Shown here: positions 452 through 10,424 of the stretch, in pieces
Numbering within the stretch: position 1 is the first letter of the stretch
Layout of the letters: every line of letters begins with the position of its first letter
Origin: Lentibacter algarum
Lineage (GTDB): Bacteria; Pseudomonadota; Alphaproteobacteria; Rhodobacterales; Rhodobacteraceae
Assembly (NCBI RefSeq): GCF_018860975.1
Contig: NZ_JAHKQI010000008.1
Span: 597,635 to 661,634 of the forward strand
Direction of reading: 5' to 3'
Length of the DNA stretch: 64,000 nt
Notes under the pieces: model-generated
The model's database searches: none
What the model was told of the DNA's origin: nothing
Seen by the model: the letters and a program-made list of their open reading frames with translations, nothing else
Position numbers and translations under genes: made by a program

Positions 452-1345
452 TTACATGCCAAGTGCTTCTTTAACTTTCGCCAAAATCGCTTGAAGCGCT
501 TCAGGGTTTTCCTGAGCTTTCTTAAGCCCGGCTTTCAAAACACCTTTTTGAACCGTGCCGACTTTGTCTGAACTGTCGATCATTTCGCTAACTTTATCGA
601 GGTCGAAACCATCGGCTGTCAGCAAGTCTGCCATCGAGCCCGTGCCCTCTTCAGCCGCTTCAGTTGCAGCGTCTGTCGCTGCGTCTGTCGCCGCTTCTGT
701 GGTTGTATCAGTGGCCGCATCTGTCGCGGCTTCCGCTGCATCCGAGGCTGCTTCTGTCGTTGCTTCAACCGCGTCGCTTGCTGTCTCTGTCGCGGCTTCT
801 GCTGCGTCCGAGGCTGCTTCTGTCGTCGCTTCAACCGCGTCGCTGGCTGTCTCTGTCGCGGCTTCCGCTGCGTCCGAGGCTGCTTCTGTCGTCGCTTCAA
901 CCGCGTCGCTGGCTGTCTCTGTCGCGGCTTCTGCTGCGTCCGAGGCTGCTTCTGTCGTTGCTTCAACCGCGTCGCTGGCTGTCTCTGTTACCGCTTCCGC
1001 TGCGTCCGAGGCGGCTTCTGTGGTTGCTTCAACCGCGTCGCTGGCTGTTTCTGTTACCGCTTCTGCTGCGTCCGAGGCTGCTTCTGTGGTTGCTTCAACT
1101 GCATCGCCAGCCGCTTCTGCCGCATCGCCTGCTGTTTCAGTCGCAGTCTCAACCGCTGTCTCAACTGCATCAGAAACCGCATCAGCTGCACCTTCAGCTG
1201 CGTCTGTAACAGCTTCAACAGGCGCCGCTTCGGTTACTGTCTCGGTGACTGACTCAACAGCTTCGCTAACATCTTGGCCCGAGTAGACAAAATAGCCCAC
1301 ACCCAAAACGATCACTGCAAGTACGACCCATAGTAAATTCTTCAT
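452..1345 (-). CDS. membrane-anchored alanine-rich 11-residue-repeat protein
   Basis: The 297-residue product has an N-terminal membrane anchor (about residues 4-21, LLWVVLAVIVLGVGYFVY), a long low-complexity region at about 25-235, and a compact C-terminal segment of about 60 residues rich in Leu, Lys and Asp that ends VKEALGM. The middle consists of A, E, T, D, S and V only. It repeats a 22-residue unit made of two 11-residue halves of the form ASDAxEAxTEx, which predicts a long acidic amphipathic helix like the 11-mers of LEA proteins. No cysteine or enzymatic motif is visible. It is probably a structural or stress-related envelope protein. The opposite strand is open by repeat symmetry and is a shadow. 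The gene stands alone, divergent from infC. Confidence 0.75.
   Translation of the reverse strand: MKNLLWVVLAVIVLGVGYFVYSGQDVSEAVESVTETVTEAAPVEAVTDAAEGAADAVSDAVETAVETATETAGDAAEAAGDAVEATTEAASDAAEAVTETASDAVEATTEAASDAAEAVTETASDAVEATTEAASDAAEAATETASDAVEATTEAASDAAEAATETASDAVEATTEAASDAAEAATETASDAVEATTEAASDAAEAATDAATDTTTEAATDAATDAATEAAEEGTGSMADLLTADGFDLDKVSEMIDSSDKVGTVQKGVLKAGLKKAQENPEALQAILAKVKEALGM
750..1110. repeat. 66-bp tandem repeat (five full copies plus a partial)
   Basis: Units begin at 750, 816, 882, 948 and 1014, with a partial unit from 1080. Copies differ by a few silent or conservative changes, for example gtcgttgct against gtggttgct and gtcgcg against gttacc. The unit is a multiple of three, so copy-number change would lengthen or shorten the encoded helix without a frameshift. 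Confidence 0.9.
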
Positions 1346-2166: not shown

Positions 2167-2751
2167 CTACTCGGCCGCTACCGCCATTGCACCGCCACCG
2201 ATCCGCTCCGGCAGAACAAAGGCGATGACAATGAACGCCGCGCCGAGAATAATGCCAAGCACATCACCCGACATCGCCATCAGCCCGTCATAGCCCGCAT
2301 CGGGAACCGTGCCGAGCGTCACTTTGCCGCCCGCTATGTTGTCGAGCAAACCGCTGGCCTTCCAGGCCGGATATGTCACCATATAGGCCGCCGATCCGAG
2401 CAGGCCACCGGCGATAAACACCCAGGCATCCTTACGACCAGAGGCCGCAGCACATACGCCGGTTCCCGGGCAATAACCCGCCGCCGCCCAGCCAACACCC
2501 AGCAGCAAGCCGCCTATGAACACGCCGACATATGCCGCCTTCACGCTCATGTGGCCAACATCAACGAGGCCGATCATCTGGCCTGCAAACATCAGAACCG
2601 AGCCAGTGCCGATCGCTGTCAAAATGGTTTTCATCAAGTTGAGATTGGTCAGCGCCAACATCTTGCCGATCCAGTTCGGGCTGGTCGCGCCGATCCGGTC
2701 AAGCACCGCGCCAAAGGCGGCACCAATTATGATTGCTAAAACAAGTGACAT
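2167..2751 (-). CDS. YeeE/YedE family membrane protein (sulfur import), downstream half
   Basis: This 194-residue integral membrane protein starts at MSLVLAIIIGAAFGAVLDR. An AAGGAG site precedes that ATG and only one base separates it from the stop of the partner gene. An earlier ATG in frame would add an Arg/Cys-rich leader that does not look like a membrane-protein start. It contains the family's cysteine motif in GYCPGTGVCAAASGRKD. YeeE/YedE proteins carry thiosulfate or other sulfur species across the membrane, and split pairs are common in alphaproteobacteria. The partner immediately upstream supplies the other half of the pore. The exact substrate cannot be read from the sequence. Confidence 0.85.
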   Translation of the reverse strand: MSLVLAIIIGAAFGAVLDRIGATSPNWIGKMLALTNLNLMKTILTAIGTGSVLMFAGQMIGLVDVGHMSVKAAYVGVFIGGLLLGVGWAAAGYCPGTGVCAAASGRKDAWVFIAGGLLGSAAYMVTYPAWKASGLLDNIAGGKVTLGTVPDAGYDGLMAMSGDVLGIILGAAFIVIAFVLPERIGGGAMAVAAE

Positions 2752-2752
2752 C

Positions 2753-3304
2753 TCAGTTCTCCTTTCTGTACATAAACATCGCCACAGGCACAGCCGAGGC
2801 AAAGGCCCCCGCCGCAAAGATGTAGCCGGACAATGAGGTTTGCATCATGCCGCTCATCATGTGGCCCGAGGTACAACCGCCCGCCAAACGCGCGCCGTAA
2901 AGAGCAATGAAACCGCCTGCAAAAGCAACGGCATAGCGCTTCATTTGTGTGTCACCAAAGCTGTTGCGCCAAATTTGCGGAATGCTGCGCTCATCCGCGC
3001 TCAATCCGCCCTTGGCCATGTTCGAGGCAAACGCACCGAGCATCATCGCCAGCACGAAAACGAACGAATAGTTCAGCGGATTGGCGACAGACTTGGCGTA
3101 TTTGCCGTCTGATTTCGCCAGATAAGCGTTGGTCGAGGTATAGCCCTCTTCGGTTTTTGTTACCAATTCGCTGTTCACAGCATCGCCGATGATCCCGTCA
3201 AGAATGACAAACTGCGTGCTCACGCCGATAGGCTTGACTAGCAGCACCGCTAGAAAAAACACCAACCCGAGCAGCACACCGCCAAGCTTCCAATCTAAAG
3301 TCAT
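2753..3304 (-). CDS. YeeE/YedE family membrane protein (sulfur import), upstream half
   Basis: The product is 183 residues with about five hydrophobic segments, starting MTLDWKLGGVLLGLVFF after an AAAGGAA ribosome site. Longer in-frame starts exist but would overlap the operator-like palindrome upstream. The motif ARLAGGCTSGHMMSGMMQ is the cysteine-containing signature of YeeE/YedE transporters (GGCTSGH). It is the first gene of a two-gene leftward operon with the 2167-2751 gene. The operator just upstream resembles those of SqrR/BigR-type sulfide-sensing repressors, which fits a role in reactive sulfur handling. Confidence 0.87.
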   Translation of the reverse strand: MTLDWKLGGVLLGLVFFLAVLLVKPIGVSTQFVILDGIIGDAVNSELVTKTEEGYTSTNAYLAKSDGKYAKSVANPLNYSFVFVLAMMLGAFASNMAKGGLSADERSIPQIWRNSFGDTQMKRYAVAFAGGFIALYGARLAGGCTSGHMMSGMMQTSLSGYIFAAGAFASAVPVAMFMYRKEN

Positions 3305-3320
3305 GGTCTGTTCCTTTCCA

Positions 3321-3342
3321 TATATTCCAGTAATTGAATATA
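3321..3342. promoter_or_regulatory. SqrR/BigR-type operator upstream of the YeeE pair
   Basis: TATATTC (3321-3327) and GAATATA (3336-3342) form a perfect 7-bp inverted repeat with an 8-base spacer. This matches the ATTC-N8-GAAT pattern known for ArsR-family persulfide/sulfide repressors in Rhodobacter and relatives. It ends 17 bases before the ATG of the upstream YeeE gene, a position suited to repression. No ArsR-family gene is seen in this window, so the repressor would be encoded elsewhere. Confidence 0.6.
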
Positions 3343-3404
3343 AAAAATCATGAGCCCCGACTTTGATCTGCATCAACTCAAGAAACCGATGTCGAAACCT
3401 CACT

Positions 3405-3480
3405 ATTGTTTCCATTTGCGAAAAAGTGTCAGCAAAGATTGACGCTGAATCGCGTAAATGGCATAAATTGTGGAAACAAT
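3405..3480 (+). promoter_or_regulatory. sigma70-like promoter bracketed by a 10-bp inverted repeat
   Basis: TTGACG (3439-3444), a 17-base spacer and CATAAA (3462-3467) form a plausible rightward promoter for the glycosyltransferase cluster. ATTGTTTCCA (3405-3414) and its exact reverse complement TGGAAACAAT (3471-3480) flank it. One arm is upstream of the -35 and the other near the expected start point. Paired operators are one reading; a chance repeat is possible. Confidence 0.45.
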
Positions 3481-3568: not shown

Positions 3569-4600
3569 ATGCGCATCACGGCCCTCACCTGCGTCAAAAA
3601 CGAAGGCCCGTTCCTGCTTGAGTGGATCGCCTTCAACCGTATCATCGGCGTTACCGACTTTTTGTTCTATCACAACGACTGTTCTGATGGCACCGAGCGC
3701 TTGCTTGAGAAGCTGCAAGAGCACGAGATCGTCAACGCGCTGCCGAACCCTGCCGAGGGGCGGCACTTTCAAATGGAAGCGCTAAAAAAGTCGCGCCGCC
3801 AACCCGTTGTCAAAAATGCTGACTGGGTCTGGATCGCCGATGTTGACGAGTTTCTCAACATTCATGTCGGCGATCACACCATCCCTGCCCTGATCAAAGC
3901 CTGCAAAAATCCGCAGTGTATTTCGATCACATTTCAGTTCATGGCCAACAACGGTGTCGAAGCCTTTGAAGACCGCCCCGTGATCGAGCAGTTCATGCAT
4001 TCTCACAATCCTGACATCTGGACAGGTGAGACAGCGATTGAAGTTAAGTCTCTGGTTCGCAAAGATTTTCCGTTAAACTATTATGGCGCTCACCGGCCGT
4101 TTCACAAGGAAGATGTGCCGCGCCGCAAGCAGCCCTCATGGAAAGACGGCTCCGGCCGCGACGTTCCGATCCAGTTTGTCAAACGCGTCAACAAACGCCG
4201 TATCCGCAAGTTTCCGGCCAAAGGCGTGCGCGATCACGCGACGCTCAATCACTATGCCCTGCGCTCGCTAGACAGCTATCTGGTCAAAAACGACCGCGGC
4301 GATGTCAATCGCGAGTTTCGCGAATTTGACGACACCTACTGGCGCGACCGCAACGACCCCTCCTATCTTGACGACAGCATCCTGCGATACTCCGAGCCGC
4401 TCAAAGCCGAGATGGACCGCCTCAAAGCCCTGCCCGGCATCGCGGCCTTGCATGATGAGTGCGTGGCCCTGCACCGTGCCAAGCTCGACGAACTCATGGC
4501 ACAAGAAACATACCGCGAAATGCGCAAACAACTGCAAGCCGCGCCGCCCTACGGAGCGCTGGAAACAGAAGTGCGCACGCTCGTCGGCCTGCCTGTATGA
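3569..4600 (+). CDS. glycosyltransferase family 2 (Glyco_tranf_2_4-like)
   Basis: The 343-residue cytoplasmic protein starts MRITALTCVKNEGPFLLEWI, the typical opening of this GT subgroup. ADVDEF at about 90-95 carries the DxD-type metal/nucleotide-sugar site. NHYALRSLDSYLVKNDRG at about 226-243 is a C-terminal signature shared with the two related domains in this cluster (5252-7612 and 8315-9364). It probably transfers a sugar to a surface glycan or protein; donor and acceptor are unknown. It is the first gene of a tightly packed rightward cluster and overlaps the sulfotransferase gene by four bases (ATGA). Confidence 0.82.
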   Translation: MRITALTCVKNEGPFLLEWIAFNRIIGVTDFLFYHNDCSDGTERLLEKLQEHEIVNALPNPAEGRHFQMEALKKSRRQPVVKNADWVWIADVDEFLNIHVGDHTIPALIKACKNPQCISITFQFMANNGVEAFEDRPVIEQFMHSHNPDIWTGETAIEVKSLVRKDFPLNYYGAHRPFHKEDVPRRKQPSWKDGSGRDVPIQFVKRVNKRRIRKFPAKGVRDHATLNHYALRSLDSYLVKNDRGDVNREFREFDDTYWRDRNDPSYLDDSILRYSEPLKAEMDRLKALPGIAALHDECVALHRAKLDELMAQETYREMRKQLQAAPPYGALETEVRTLVGLPV

Positions 4601-5250
4601 GTGACTTCAAAATCATAAACCTTGGCCTGCCAAAAACAGGTACAACAACGCTCACCCGTGCTTTGCGTCGCGCGTGTATCCCAACGGTTGACTGGAAGGT
4701 TCACAAACGCCAGACGCCTGACGAGAGCCTGCATGGGCAGCACCTCGGCACGCTGATGTATCGCGACTATTTTGACAGTGGTGACCCGCTCAAGCGCCTC
4801 ACAAAATGGCGTGCATTCAATGAGTTAAGCCATGCTGGCCTCAAACACTCGCTTTGGCCGCAAACCGACTGGGGCCTGCTGAGTGCGATCCTCAAACATC
4901 ACCCCGACACGCGGTTTATGCTCAACACCCGTGACCCCGAAAGAACCGCTGCTTCAATCATCCGCTGGGGCAACCTTGGCTCATTGCGCCTGCCCAACAC
5001 CAATGTTCCGGGCTTGCCCAAGGGCTACGGCGAACAATCCCATATCGCGCGCTGGATCGAAGCTCACTATGCCTTTGTGCGTCGCGTGTTTTCCGGTGCC
5101 GACAACTTCCTCGAGTTTGACATTACCGACAGCGACGCTCCGAAGAAGATCGGGGCATTCCTTGATACCAAGCTGCCTTGGTGGGGCCGTGCAAACGCCC
5201 GCCCCGAAGCCGACACTCCGATGCTCCAGCCAGAAATGACAGATAACTAG
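4597..5250 (+). CDS. sulfotransferase family protein
   Basis: The 217-residue product begins MSDFKIINLGLPKTGTTTLT. PKTGTT is the PAPS 5'-phosphosulfate-binding loop of sulfotransferases. The later stretch RFMLNTRDPERTAASIIRW matches the 3'-phosphate-binding region, with conserved Arg and Ser. I chose ATG 4597, which overlaps the previous stop, rather than the longer in-frame start at 4459 that lies inside the glycosyltransferase gene. It probably sulfates a glycan made by the neighbouring transferases. The frame closes one base before the next gene, so the cluster is likely a single transcript. Confidence 0.82.
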   Translation: MSDFKIINLGLPKTGTTTLTRALRRACIPTVDWKVHKRQTPDESLHGQHLGTLMYRDYFDSGDPLKRLTKWRAFNELSHAGLKHSLWPQTDWGLLSAILKHHPDTRFMLNTRDPERTAASIIRWGNLGSLRLPNTNVPGLPKGYGEQSHIARWIEAHYAFVRRVFSGADNFLEFDITDSDAPKKIGAFLDTKLPWWGRANARPEADTPMLQPEMTDN

Positions 5251-5251
5251 T

Positions 5252-7612
5252 ATGCGTATTCACCTCCTCATTGGCCCCACGCCTGAAAGCTCCGACAGGT
5301 TCCGCACGATCCTCAAGAAAAAGTCGGCCCTGCTCGAGAAGTCGGCCATCATGTGCCCGGACTGGAACCATATCCGTCTCTACATGGCCTGTGCCGATGA
5401 AGATGCCATAGGCGTTGTGCGCTTCAAACGCGGCTTTGCGACAGCGCTGGCGCAAAAGGCGTTGTATGACGAGATCGAATTGCAACTCAAACGCGCTGTG
5501 GAAGAAAACAAACCTGACATTCTGGTGCTGGCAAACGGGCAGATCGGCTCAATGTTACACACGAAGAGTGAGCTGCAACGCCTTAAAAAGCTTCTAAATT
5601 CTGTATCCGATGATATCCGCATCACAGCTCATGTCGACGCCCAGACACGCGTGCTCGCACCGCTCTATTCCTCCAAAGTCATGGAAGGTCGCAGCCGCCC
5701 GCTTGATGTCGAGTTCGCCTTGGCCAAGAGCCGCAAGGGGTGGTGGAAACATGCGCTTGAACTGCGCGAAGAGAACCAGCCCTACTACGGCCTCTTCAAC
5801 GACATCCAACACCCCGCTCCCTGGCTTGACTACGAGGCCATGCTTGCTGCTTGGGAAGACGTGTTCGGTGAAAACACCGTGTTCCTTCGCCCGCTTGATC
5901 GCACGCGCCTCCTGTCCGAGGACGCGCCATCCGAACTTAACGAAATTCTTGAAACCGATATCACCCTTGGCAAAGTTGAAGCCGGCAAGCCCGAGGGGTT
6001 GCATTCGGCTGCCTCCGTAGGCCGCGTGCGGCAGTTCAACGACATCCTTATCAAGTATATGCAAGCCAAGGCGTTTTTCACCCCGCGTGACTTATGGCGC
6101 AACATGACAAGCCATTTGCGCCAGAACGGTGCCCCCATTTCTGCGGGGTCTCTCTTCGAAATCTCTGACAAGTTCGCACCTGCAAACGCCCGCCTTATCA
6201 AGCGTTTTCCTACGCTGAAGGCCTGCCTGACACCCGATGCCCCGCTTGAAAGCTGGGTCGAAGACGACGGCGGCAAAGGCTATCGCGCCAGCCAATATCT
6301 CACCGCTTTTGCACACCAGATCCGCAACAACTCAACACCCGTGGCCGAGCTTGAGGCCGAGGCCGCAAAAGCCACAGAAGGGAGCTCGCATTTTGACGAT
6401 TTGATCGCCAACGAGCACAACGGTGATCAGTCAAAAGACGCGCGCCAAAAGCTGCTCGACAAGCTCAAGGTTAACCACCAGATCGTGCTGTCAACGCATA
6501 TCAGGCCGCACAACGACGTTGGCCGCGTCAATGAAGAAGATCCCGGCTCGCCCTATTCTGAAGTCCCGATACGCGAGCTTCCGGACGGCAACAGCGGCAA
6601 TGTCATTGTTGGCTGCATGAAAAACGAAGCGCCCTATATCGTCGAGTGGATCGCCTATCACCGTGCGATGGGCGTCGACAATTTTGTCATCTACACCAAC
6701 GGCTGCGAAGACAGCACGACAGATGTGCTGGATCGGCTGCAAGAAATGGGCATTGTCCAACATCGCGACAACACCGACTGGCGCGGAAACTCGCCGCAGC
6801 AGTTCGCCCTTAACAGCTCGCTCAAAGAGCCGGTTATTCAAAACGCCGAGTGGATCATTCACATTGATGTCGACGAGTTCATCAATGTGCGCACAGGCAA
6901 CGGCACGCTTGAAGACCTCTTCAAAGCCACTGGCAAAGCCACCAACATCGCGATGACATGGCGGCTGTTTGGCCACAATGGCGTTACCAAACTGTCAAAC
7001 GACTTTGTGATTGACCAGTTCGACACCTGCGCCCCGAAATATTGCCCGAAGCCGCACACGGTCTGGGGCTTCAAGTCGATGTTCAAGAACATGCAGGCCT
7101 ATAAAAAAATATCCTGTCACCGTCCCAACCAGATCATCGACGAAAAGCGGGATCAGGTGAAATGGGTCAACGGTTCGGGCAAGGATGTCACCGAAGATTA
7201 CATCAAAGGCGGTTGGAGAAGTTCCAAGAAAACAGTCGGTTACGACTTGGTGCAGCTCAATCACTATGCCCTGCGGTCGGCTGAGAGCTTCCTGATCAAA
7301 CGCCAGCGTGGCCGCGCATTGCACGTCGATCGCTCCATCGGGCTCAACTACTGGATCCGCATGGACTGGTGCGATTTCAAAGACAACACCATCAAGCGCA
7401 ACTCCGAGCGCACCCGCGCCGAGTATGAGCGCCTCATGAGCGACCCCGCCCTGAAAAAAGCCCATGACGACGGGCTTGAGTGGCACAAAGCCAAGGCCGA
7501 AGACCTGCACAGCCAGCCAGAGTTTCAGGAGCTCTACGCACAGGCACTCAACGTCAAGCTGTCAGAAACCGAGCGGGTGGCCTATGCCCTCGCCCTCGAT
7601 ATGGAAAGCTGA
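5252..7612 (+). CDS. fusion: degenerate sulfotransferase-like domain plus family 2 glycosyltransferase
   Basis: This 786-residue protein has two parts. Residues 1 to about 400 resemble sulfotransferase-like proteins in layout: a MRIHLLIGPTP start, a stretch around RITAHVDAQTRVLAPLYSSK, and WLDYEAMLAAWEDVFGEN. The PAPS loop PKTGTT is replaced by PTPESSD, so catalysis is doubtful. From about residue 448 (VIVGCMKNEAPYIVEWIAYH) it is a family 2 glycosyltransferase with DVDEF at about 539 and NHYALRSAESFLIKRQRG near 673. It may couple acceptor binding to glycosylation. It starts one base after the sulfotransferase stop. Two separate ancestral genes joined by fusion is the simplest origin. Confidence 0.75.
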   Translation: MRIHLLIGPTPESSDRFRTILKKKSALLEKSAIMCPDWNHIRLYMACADEDAIGVVRFKRGFATALAQKALYDEIELQLKRAVEENKPDILVLANGQIGSMLHTKSELQRLKKLLNSVSDDIRITAHVDAQTRVLAPLYSSKVMEGRSRPLDVEFALAKSRKGWWKHALELREENQPYYGLFNDIQHPAPWLDYEAMLAAWEDVFGENTVFLRPLDRTRLLSEDAPSELNEILETDITLGKVEAGKPEGLHSAASVGRVRQFNDILIKYMQAKAFFTPRDLWRNMTSHLRQNGAPISAGSLFEISDKFAPANARLIKRFPTLKACLTPDAPLESWVEDDGGKGYRASQYLTAFAHQIRNNSTPVAELEAEAAKATEGSSHFDDLIANEHNGDQSKDARQKLLDKLKVNHQIVLSTHIRPHNDVGRVNEEDPGSPYSEVPIRELPDGNSGNVIVGCMKNEAPYIVEWIAYHRAMGVDNFVIYTNGCEDSTTDVLDRLQEMGIVQHRDNTDWRGNSPQQFALNSSLKEPVIQNAEWIIHIDVDEFINVRTGNGTLEDLFKATGKATNIAMTWRLFGHNGVTKLSNDFVIDQFDTCAPKYCPKPHTVWGFKSMFKNMQAYKKISCHRPNQIIDEKRDQVKWVNGSGKDVTEDYIKGGWRSSKKTVGYDLVQLNHYALRSAESFLIKRQRGRALHVDRSIGLNYWIRMDWCDFKDNTIKRNSERTRAEYERLMSDPALKKAHDDGLEWHKAKAEDLHSQPEFQELYAQALNVKLSETERVAYALALDMES

Positions 7613-7616
7613 GAAC

Positions 7617-8330
7617 ATGGACGGACAAGCCAGCCCGAAGTCAAAGTTCAAAATGGTCGCCTCGCGGGGCATCCTCGTGCCGCGTGACCCTGCCATTATG
7701 ACACCCAAGCTGCGGCGCAAACTGCGCATGGATGCCTATGAAGCGAAGGAAGCGCAGATAGTGCTAAAATGCGTCTCCAAGGGCGACACCGTGCTCGAGC
7801 TTGGCGGCGGCATCGGCTATATCTCGACGTTGATCGCCAAGAAACGCGATGTTGCTGCGGTTCACAGCTTTGAGGCCAACCCGCATCTCGCGCCCTTTCA
7901 CGCCCAGATGCACGCCGCCAACGGTGTGACAACTGTCACAACCCACAACGCCCTGCTCGCCCCGCGCAAAGGCAAACCGCAGCCGTTCTATGTGCGCGAA
8001 GATTTCCTCGCCTCTTCGCTTGAGGAAGAGATCGACGGCATGCCTGTCAAGTCGGTTGAAGAGGTGGAAGTGCGCGGCCTTAACGCCGTGTTCAAAGAGC
8101 TCAAGCCTGATATTCTGGTTTGTGACATCGAAGGCGCTGAAGCGACGCTGCTGCCGCACCTCAAATACGCCGGCCTGCGCGCCGCGATTATTGAGCTGCA
8201 CCCGCAGTGGATCGGCGCCGAAGGCGTGCGCTCGGTGTTTGACGCCATGCATGCCATAGGGCTTACATATTTTCCGCAGTGGTCAGATCAGAAAGTCGTT
8301 TGCTTTCGTAAGGCATGGAAAACAAAGTGA
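7617..8330 (+). CDS. FkbM family methyltransferase
   Basis: The 237-residue product has the SAM-binding motif I in DTVLELGGGIGYISTLIA and the FkbM features SFEANPHLAPF, DILVCDIEGAEATLLPHL and a C-terminal IIELHPQWIG. FkbM-type enzymes O-methylate sugars or other small groups. I chose ATG 7617, four bases after the previous stop. The longer start at 7464 would overlap the fusion gene and encode a Ser/Pro-rich non-homologous leader. It probably methylates the same glycan that the neighbouring transferases build. Its end overlaps the next gene by 16 bases. Confidence 0.85.
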   Translation: MDGQASPKSKFKMVASRGILVPRDPAIMTPKLRRKLRMDAYEAKEAQIVLKCVSKGDTVLELGGGIGYISTLIAKKRDVAAVHSFEANPHLAPFHAQMHAANGVTTVTTHNALLAPRKGKPQPFYVREDFLASSLEEEIDGMPVKSVEEVEVRGLNAVFKELKPDILVCDIEGAEATLLPHLKYAGLRAAIIELHPQWIGAEGVRSVFDAMHAIGLTYFPQWSDQKVVCFRKAWKTK

Positions 8331-9364
8331 AGTTTCTCGCTGTCCTGACAGTTCGCAACGAGGCTGCCTTCCTGCTCGAGTGGCTCGCGCATCATCAGGC
8401 GGTTGGCTTCACCGACTTTCTGGTGCTCTCTAACGACTGCGACGATGGCACCGACGCGATGCTTGATCGCTTGGCCGAGCTTGGCCACATCACGCATATA
8501 CGCAACGACGGCCCCTATGACAAAGGCGGCATCCAGTTCACCGGCCTCAAACGTGCCGACAAGCTTGATATTGTGCGCGAGGCAGACTGGATACTCGCGT
8601 TTGATGTCGACGAGTTTGTCAACATCCACACCGGGGATCATACCCTGCCCGCATTGCTCTCGGCCTTGCCTGATGCCACGGCGATCACTCTGACGTGGCG
8701 GTTGTTTGGTAGCTCCGACATTGCACGCTATGAAGACAGGCCCGTGACTGAGCAATTCACCCGGGCCGCCCCTGAAGTCATGCACTGGCCCTGGCGCTCG
8801 GCGATGTTCAAAACCCTCTATAAAAACAACGGCCTATACGGTAAAATTGGTGTGCACCGTCCGCGCCAGCCCGACAAGGCCCGCCTTGACGAGGCTCAGT
8901 GGTATGACGGTGAAGGCCGCCTGCTTGAAGAGCAGTTCAAAACCCGGCGGATTTTCTCGAACTATGGTCAGCCCAACTACGGCCTTGTGCAACTCAACCA
9001 CTATCCGCTCGGATCACTTGAGAGCTTTGTTGTCAAAGCCGCGCGCGGGCGGGCTGTTCACTCAGATCACATGCTTGACGTCGACTATTGGGTCGAGCGT
9101 AATTACAACACCGATATCGACACCTCGGTGCAGGCCCTTGCCCCCGAAATGCAAGCCCGCCTTGCCCCCCTTCGGGCCGACATCACCCTCGAACAACTGC
9201 ACCATGATGCGGTGGAGTGGCGCCGCGCCAAGTTTCTGAAATTGCTGGAAGAAGAACCCTACCGCGCCCTGTTCGGCCGGCTCTTGCAAACCCCTCCCAC
9301 ACGCCCCGTCGCGCCGGAGATGGCCATGCTGATGCGCAAAAGCGCTTTGAAGGGCAAGAAATAG
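8315..9364 (+). CDS. glycosyltransferase family 2 (Glyco_tranf_2_4-like)
   Basis: The 349-residue product is a paralogue of the 3569-4600 product and of the C-terminal domain of the 5252-7612 product. It begins MENKVKFLAVLTVRNEAAFL, has AFDVDEF at about 95-101, and shares NHYPLGSLESFVVKAARG near 229-246. All three contain a GVHRPRQ/AHRPFHK/CHRPNQ segment before the C-terminal third. The acceptor is unknown. The start lies inside the FkbM methyltransferase gene, consistent with coupled translation at the end of a single transcript. Confidence 0.82.
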   Translation: MENKVKFLAVLTVRNEAAFLLEWLAHHQAVGFTDFLVLSNDCDDGTDAMLDRLAELGHITHIRNDGPYDKGGIQFTGLKRADKLDIVREADWILAFDVDEFVNIHTGDHTLPALLSALPDATAITLTWRLFGSSDIARYEDRPVTEQFTRAAPEVMHWPWRSAMFKTLYKNNGLYGKIGVHRPRQPDKARLDEAQWYDGEGRLLEEQFKTRRIFSNYGQPNYGLVQLNHYPLGSLESFVVKAARGRAVHSDHMLDVDYWVERNYNTDIDTSVQALAPEMQARLAPLRADITLEQLHHDAVEWRRAKFLKLLEEEPYRALFGRLLQTPPTRPVAPEMAMLMRKSALKGKK

Positions 9365-9461: not shown

Positions 9462-10424
9462 ATGCAGGACGACACACAAACAACCGACAATTCGCTCGAC
9501 AATTCGTTGGCCGATATGCCCAAGCGCGACTGGCTATTGGCCTTCTCCGGCATCGCCGAAGAGCACGGCCACTTTCAGCCCCTTGGCAAAAGCCACTTCT
9601 CGTCTTTCATCGAGGGCGGTGAGATCTTGCTCGTCACTTTCGAGAGCTACGAGAACATCCAACGTATTTCGCCCAAAGCGCACCCGCTGGGCTGGGAGAT
9701 TGCCAAAGTTCTCGGCTGGTCCACGCTCAACATCATTTCTGACGGCCAATCGTGGTATCGCGACGCCGACATCTACAGCTATTTCGATGATCTGATCGAT
9801 GATGGTTTCTTTGAAGAGTTCGACTCGGTGCTGTTTTATGGCGCAGGCGCAGCAGGTTACGCGGCGGCGGCTTATTCTGTCGCTGCGCCCGGAGCACGTG
9901 TTCTAGCCTTGCAGCCTCAAGCCACGCTTGATCCACGCGTCACCGAATGGGACGATCGCTACCCCCGTCAACGCCGCCATGACTGGACAAGCCGCTATGG
10001 TTTTGCACCCGACATGATAGACGGAGCCCAGGAAGCCTTCGTGCTCTATGACCCGCAAGAAACCGAGGATGCCATGCACGCTGCACTCTACACGCGTCCA
10101 AATGTGCACAAACTGCGCATGCCCAACGCGGGCGGCGCCTTGCAGTTCTCCCTGCGCAACATGAAAGTTCTCTCGCGCATTATCGCGCTTGCCGGCACAG
10201 GTCAGCTCACCCCCGAGATATTTGCCAAACTTTACCGCGCCCGCCGCGATGACCGCAACTATCTGCGCTCGCTTCTGCGTCGCCTGGAAGACCAGGGCCG
10301 CACCAAGCTTGCGCATGTGCTATGCACGAATGCAGTCGCGCGGCTTGAAAATGCTCCCGCCTTCGAGCGCCGCCTGAAGTTTCTCAGCCAAAAACTGGAA
10401 GAATCCTTACCGCACGAAAGCTAA
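9462..10424 (+). CDS. alpha/beta-hydrolase-like protein lacking an obvious catalytic triad
   Basis: The 320-residue protein has a central segment, [20 protein letters not shown] at about 123-142, that looks like the nucleophile elbow and following helix of an alpha/beta hydrolase. Alanine stands where the Ser of GxSxG would be. The later [14 protein letters not shown], where a catalytic His is expected, has no His. Similar roseobacter proteins are sometimes labelled PAPS reductase, but I see no motif supporting that. It lies 97 bases after the glycosyltransferase cluster and may belong to it. It may be a binding protein rather than an enzyme. The N terminus is acidic and probably disordered. 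Confidence 0.6.

Follow-up and report, generated by a model that had tools for sequence, protein, structure and literature searches.

The open reading frame at 5252-7612 of the window (the whole 64,000-nucleotide stretch of Lentibacter algarum DNA that was analysed) encodes a protein of 786 residues, its coordinates and sequence verified, that is confirmed to consist of two domains: an N-terminal domain (N-domain) with a sulfotransferase fold and a C-terminal GT92-type glycosyltransferase (GT) domain. The residue comparisons described below leave very little doubt that the N-domain is catalytically dead, and what was once an enzyme seems to have been put to new use as an auxiliary module, most likely a sugar-binding one. 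The parts of this fusion and its neighbours in the window are as follows.

3569-4600, + strand: GT_A, stand-alone GT92-type glycosyltransferase (PF13704, 65 bits; PF01697, 39.5 bits; conserved synteny).
4597-5250, + strand: ST217, intact 217-residue sulfotransferase with LPKTGTT (PF17784, Sulfotransfer_4, 39.6 bits, cut-off 22.8).
5252-6421, + strand: N-terminal pseudo-sulfotransferase domain, residues 1-390, with a sulfotransferase-like core at residues 1 to ~335 (AlphaFold, VIA-align, hhalign).
5276-5299, + strand: degenerate 5'-phosphosulfate loop (P-loop), residues 9-16, PTPESSDR replacing PKTGTT (alignment of 78 homologues).
5540-5542, + strand: Q97, site of an invariant Glu in intact relatives that is a candidate catalytic base (alignment; catalytic role suggested by topology).
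5636-5662, + strand: lost 3'-phosphate-binding motif, from D129 to P137, in place of Arg and Ser respectively (alignment).
6422-6586, + strand: linker, residues 391-445 (2 of 55 positions invariant).
6587-7609, + strand: GT92-type glycosyltransferase domain (residues 446-710) and C-terminal helices, with a DVD motif at 539-541 (PF13704, PF01697, GalS1 match).
7611-8330, + strand: FkbM-family methyltransferase, found in some loci only (TIGR01444, 52.4 bits, cut-off 37.7; synteny).
8315-9364, + strand: GT_B, stand-alone GT92-type glycosyltransferase (PF13704, 85.2 bits; synteny).
9462-10424, + strand: orf320, conserved 320-residue protein, present in nearly all loci (synteny).

Both fold and sequence show the N-domain to be homologous to PAPS-dependent sulfotransferases. 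The AlphaFold model of the N-domain, built with 78 homologues as input, has a pLDDT of 93.3 and a pTM of 0.90 (88.3 and 0.78 for the full-length fusion). VIA-align superimposes it on the sulfotransferase 3rnl with Z 14.0 (235 residues aligned, rmsd 3.8), on NDST1 entries with Z 12.8-13.6 (1nst, 13.5) and on 3-OST enzymes with Z 12.3-13.2; the top 16 chains are all sulfotransferases, and the best unrelated fold reaches Z 7.9. The first five Foldseek matches are likewise sulfotransferases, with weak E-values of 7e-3 to 2e-2. At the level of sequence, hhalign pairs the N-domain profile with that of 12 motif-bearing relatives over residues 1-336 (probability 99.9%, E 1.6e-34), the 12-member profile itself retrieves 3rnl (E 2e-4), and the N-domain profile retrieves a paralogue from the same genome, L112 (E 4e-9), a 407-residue open frame with PKTGST and YLRRQ...S motifs. 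Chance similarity to sulfotransferases was rejected on the hhalign E-value, the Z of 14.0 and the retrieval of this paralogue. Searched as a single sequence against Pfam, NCBIfam and PDB sequences, the N-terminal 433 residues gave no credible match (best scores for the N-domain: AroM, E 0.12; SilE, E 0.18; 4chm, E 0.94), and hmmsearch of two profiles (A1 and A4) against the PDB returned chance matches only; the missing Pfam match carries no weight, because Pfam also misses the motif-intact L112. The first-pass annotation of this DNA had read a sulfotransferase-like plan in the first ~400 residues, fused to a glycosyltransferase, and had proposed structure prediction as a check; the model, which is sulfotransferase-like, and the profiles agree with that reading and limit the core to residues 1 to ~335, the stretch from there to ~400 being a helical tail and linker outside it.

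The residues that bind PAPS have been lost across the family. Residues 1-15 of the fusion protein are MRIHLLIGPTPESSD, and in an ungapped alignment to L112 (MKAVVHFGMPKTGST) TPESSD at positions 10-15 takes the place of PKTGST, in keeping with the annotated replacement of the PKTGTT loop by PTPESSD. When 78 fusion homologues were compared with 12 motif-bearing intact relatives, the P-loop Lys at position 11 was found in none of the fusions and in all 12 relatives; the 3'-phosphate Arg at position 129 was again in 0/78 (D in 67, E in 4) versus 12/12; the Ser at position 137, eight residues from that Arg, was present in 3 fusions as against 10 of the relatives; and position 97 was Gln in 76/78 fusions and Glu in every intact relative. 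This Glu closes the second core strand and would, by inference from topology, be the catalytic base of the intact enzymes. Position 11 is Arg in two divergent members, which lack the motif's Thr residues, and the P-loop replacement varies from fusion to fusion with no shared substitute motif. R16 is kept in 78/78 of the first set yet lost in several more divergent members, so that the former PAPS pocket is not conserved throughout as a ligand site. Conservation of the PAPS loop in close homologues, which would have spoken against inactivity, was looked for and found in none of the 78; the domain inferred in the annotation to be inactive has thus lost its PAPS residues family-wide and not in one strain, and a local mutation of this strain is ruled out as the cause. 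The C-terminal half is apparently active as a glycosyltransferase. It matches Glyco_tranf_2_4 (PF13704, 80.9 bits) and GT92 (PF01697, 55 bits, gathering score 23), residues 443-730 of the full-length model superimpose on GalS1 (8d3t; Z 17.9, rmsd 3.3, 232 aligned), and D539-V-D541 (the DxD motif) and several His are invariant in 78 homologues.

The fusion spans many genera of the Rhodobacteraceae. The N-domain profile matches 77 of 295 sampled genomes of the family, of which 76 hold true fusions; the remaining match, L125 in G130, is a motif-bearing sulfotransferase that stands alone. Sampling across the class showed the complete N-domain in this family only, with nothing elsewhere but partial matches to motif-bearing sulfotransferases. 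A contig scan with the single N-domain sequence found no relatives, whereas a scan with the N-domain alignment yielded 220 loci, of which 80 were retained, nearly all of them encoding the same fusion at 770-811 residues. In the tree, 29 sampled fusion N-domains are split from 17 intact ones by a 100/100 branch; one fusion clade is consistent with a single loss of function, and the N-domain was probably inactivated once and then retained.

Codon comparisons indicate that the N-domain is under purifying selection: in 12 pairs, w (Nei-Gojobori) is 0.085-0.183 in the N-domain, compared with 0.05-0.12 in the GT domain, values that are approximate, some pairs being near synonymous saturation. Of the two domains the N-domain diverges faster, with 21 of 390 positions invariant versus 109 of 265 in the GT domain. 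Ordinary pseudogene decay is ruled out by a w of ~0.1 and by intact open reading frames in nearly all loci. Two fusion copies are interrupted, one by a stop after 59 codons (L104, from an Ascidiaceihabitans MAG) and one by a frameshift close to residue 88 (L152, from G288); each may reflect decay or an error of sequencing.

The neighbouring ST217, with LPKTGTT and 39.6 bits to Sulfotransfer_4, is the intact sulfotransferase that the first-pass annotation took it to be, and its motif residues are kept in other genomes as well (K13 in 76/77, R112 in 76/77, S120 in 77/77). The gene order in the 80 loci, which is strongly conserved, is GT_A - ST217 - fusion - (FkbM) - GT_B - orf320, usually followed by pyrC - pyrE - dnaB; orf320 has no Pfam, NCBIfam or PDB sequence match above cut-off. 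ST217 adjoins the fusion in 76 of the 80 loci, and in 60 of these 76 pairs its stop overlaps the start of the fusion by 1 or 4 nt (the two are 1 nt apart in the window), which suggests translational coupling. Among the 295 genomes ST217 occurs in 72, the fusion in 76 and both in 70 (Fisher p 7e-57, counting 77 matches, a value that overstates independence since the genomes are related). ST217 is presumed to be a partner in the same pathway as the fusion, the product of which is inferred to be a sulfated, perhaps methylated surface glycan on which ST217 acts. In three genomes, G005 (L118), G044 (L117) and G138 (L155), ST217 lies far from the fusion and has itself been fused to another domain of sulfotransferase type; in L117 and L118 a gene resembling cell-wall amidases lies upstream of this double protein. 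The P-loop of the added domain is HRTGSS, intact-looking, in G044 and PCAGTEE, degenerate, in G005, where it is possibly another dead sulfotransferase domain. Upstream of the locus in the window, 2167-3415 (- strand) encodes two adjacent YeeE/YedE-like membrane proteins with weak likeness, below curated cut-offs, to selenium or thiosulfate transporters, and 452-1345 (- strand) encodes a 297-residue protein made mostly of Ala/Thr/Glu-rich repeats (AAEAxTETASDAVEATTEAASD).

What the dead domain does can be approached through the genomes that break the association with ST217. The earlier annotation proposed, as alternatives, acceptor binding and a scaffold that recruits the active enzyme. In such a scaffold the dead domain would dock ST217, perhaps by a surface of the kind used in sulfotransferase dimerisation, and the glycan made by the GT domain would be handed straight to sulfation. 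The adjacency and gene overlaps, the presence of the fusion in 70 of the 72 ST217-bearing genomes and the retention of ST217 even where it has been relocated are all in its favour, although adjacency is expected of any common pathway. Six genomes, however, have the fusion without detectable ST217 (E up to 1e-15): G027, G058, G110, G213, G219 and G288. In these, GT_A is followed by the fusion with no ST217 between, and, apart from G288 with its frameshifted fusion, they keep 18-21 of the 21 N-domain signature residues, R16 and W191 among them (20 in G027, 18 in G058, and 21 in G110, G219 and G213, the last of which belonged to the set that defined the signature and so gives no independent score). 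This is no worse than the 12-21 kept by ST217-bearing members that have diverged to a similar degree. The reverse case, ST217 without the fusion, was found in only two of the 295 genomes, in one with an in-frame stop and in the other near a contig end. The imbalance agrees with ST217 working on what the fusion makes, and with an N-domain role that does not need ST217; the signature retained in ST217-less lineages suggests that the N-domain works with the GT domain to which it is joined. Going by these genomes, recruitment of ST217 cannot be the sole role of the N-domain. In a residual-distance (mirror-tree) comparison the N-domain follows its own GT domain no more closely than it follows GT_A and ST217, a result confounded by evolutionary rate and clade structure. 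Such tracking would fit a role in protein contact, contrary to acceptor binding, and the correlation of 0.45-0.55 between N-domain and ST217 can be counted for the scaffold; this correlation becomes weaker inside the Lentibacter/Sulfitobacter clade (p 0.075), and the N-domain correlates about equally or better with GT_A (0.76, falling to 0.48 without that clade, fast-evolving proteins tending to correlate best). Taken together, docking of ST217 for direct hand-over appears improbable, if still worth considering. A stronger version, in which the pseudo-sulfotransferase would be a docking and allosteric platform that couples GT92 extension and sulfation in one complex, is doubtful; if true, a dead relative of the sulfotransferases would serve as receptor for a live one.

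Acceptor binding would fit the evidence at least as well as recruitment. We consider the chances even that the N-domain is an acceptor-binding module for the GT92 domain, a reading favoured because GalS1, a plant beta-1,4-galactan synthase whose N-terminal CBM95 binds the RG-I backbone (PMC11062476) and is joined to a GT92 domain, offers a functional precedent. A purely structural part, in which the N-domain would stabilise, dimerise or anchor the GT domain and bind neither glycan nor ST217, could draw on the pTM of 0.78 for the full-length model, which suggests a fixed domain arrangement, on the low share of invariant positions in the N-domain and on the homodimers formed by the GalS1 stem (PMC11062476); it is nevertheless unlikely, as GT_A and GT_B manage without such a domain and many signature residues are polar or charged (N39, R42, R57, R60, E107, R147, D193, R258, R345), seemingly beyond what packing needs. 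That the N-domain has stayed catalytic, using another donor or unusual motifs, is very improbable: purifying selection and family-specific conserved residues (for example Q97, and R16 in most members) would suit it, but the P-loop differs between members and no replacement motif is shared, an acid replaces the 3'-phosphate Arg in 71/78 fusions, and 76/78 carry the amide Gln in place of the Glu proposed as base. Under acceptor binding, the fusion would be a glycosyltransferase of two domains, presumably cytoplasmic. Its N-domain, once a PAPS-dependent sulfotransferase, would have lost donor binding and catalysis and survive as a non-catalytic auxiliary module; the old acceptor cleft would most likely be retained and would hold or position the glycan during its extension by the GT92 domain, and sulfation of the same glycan would fall to ST217, the separate intact enzyme encoded just upstream.

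To our knowledge, few catalytically dead sulfotransferases have been documented. A search of the open-access literature for pseudo- or inactive sulfotransferase domains returned only the sulfotransferase-like domain of DSEL and an unrelated mention, and no published description of the fusion protein or its locus was found there. The present case is a dead sulfotransferase domain that is widespread (220 loci in one collection), selected, joined to a glycosyltransferase and placed beside a genuine sulfotransferase. It allows the conversion of a donor-binding fold into a glycan-handling module to be tested, and it marks a conserved locus, probably for a sulfated glycan, in the roseobacters, which are abundant marine bacteria.

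Several known systems resemble the fusion in part. The fusion shares its fold over residues 1-330 with PAPS-dependent carbohydrate sulfotransferases (3-OST, NDST, 3rnl) and differs from them in being without the Lys or Thr motif of the 5'-phosphosulfate-binding loop, the 3'-phosphate-binding Arg and the Glu at the candidate base position. L142, from the alphaproteobacterial family f117 (G514), is a larger protein that begins with a domain of the same sulfotransferase subfamily, but its KTGST and LRRQ motifs are intact and its C-terminal region is without a Pfam match, so that it has no GT92 assignment; elsewhere, an open frame of G020 (L123, L138) contains two tandem intact sulfotransferase domains. 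In DSEL (dermatan sulfate epimerase 2) a sulfotransferase-like domain is joined to another carbohydrate-modifying domain (PMC4920151), but this protein is vertebrate, and its sulfotransferase-like domain is C-terminal and joined to an epimerase. GalS1 (PDB 8d3t, 8d3z) has a known product and a CBM95 as its own N-terminal module, whereas that of the fusion is a sulfotransferase fold with no CBM95; it is the best match to the GT domain, and like the fusion it combines an N-terminal non-catalytic module with a C-terminal GT-A catalytic domain.
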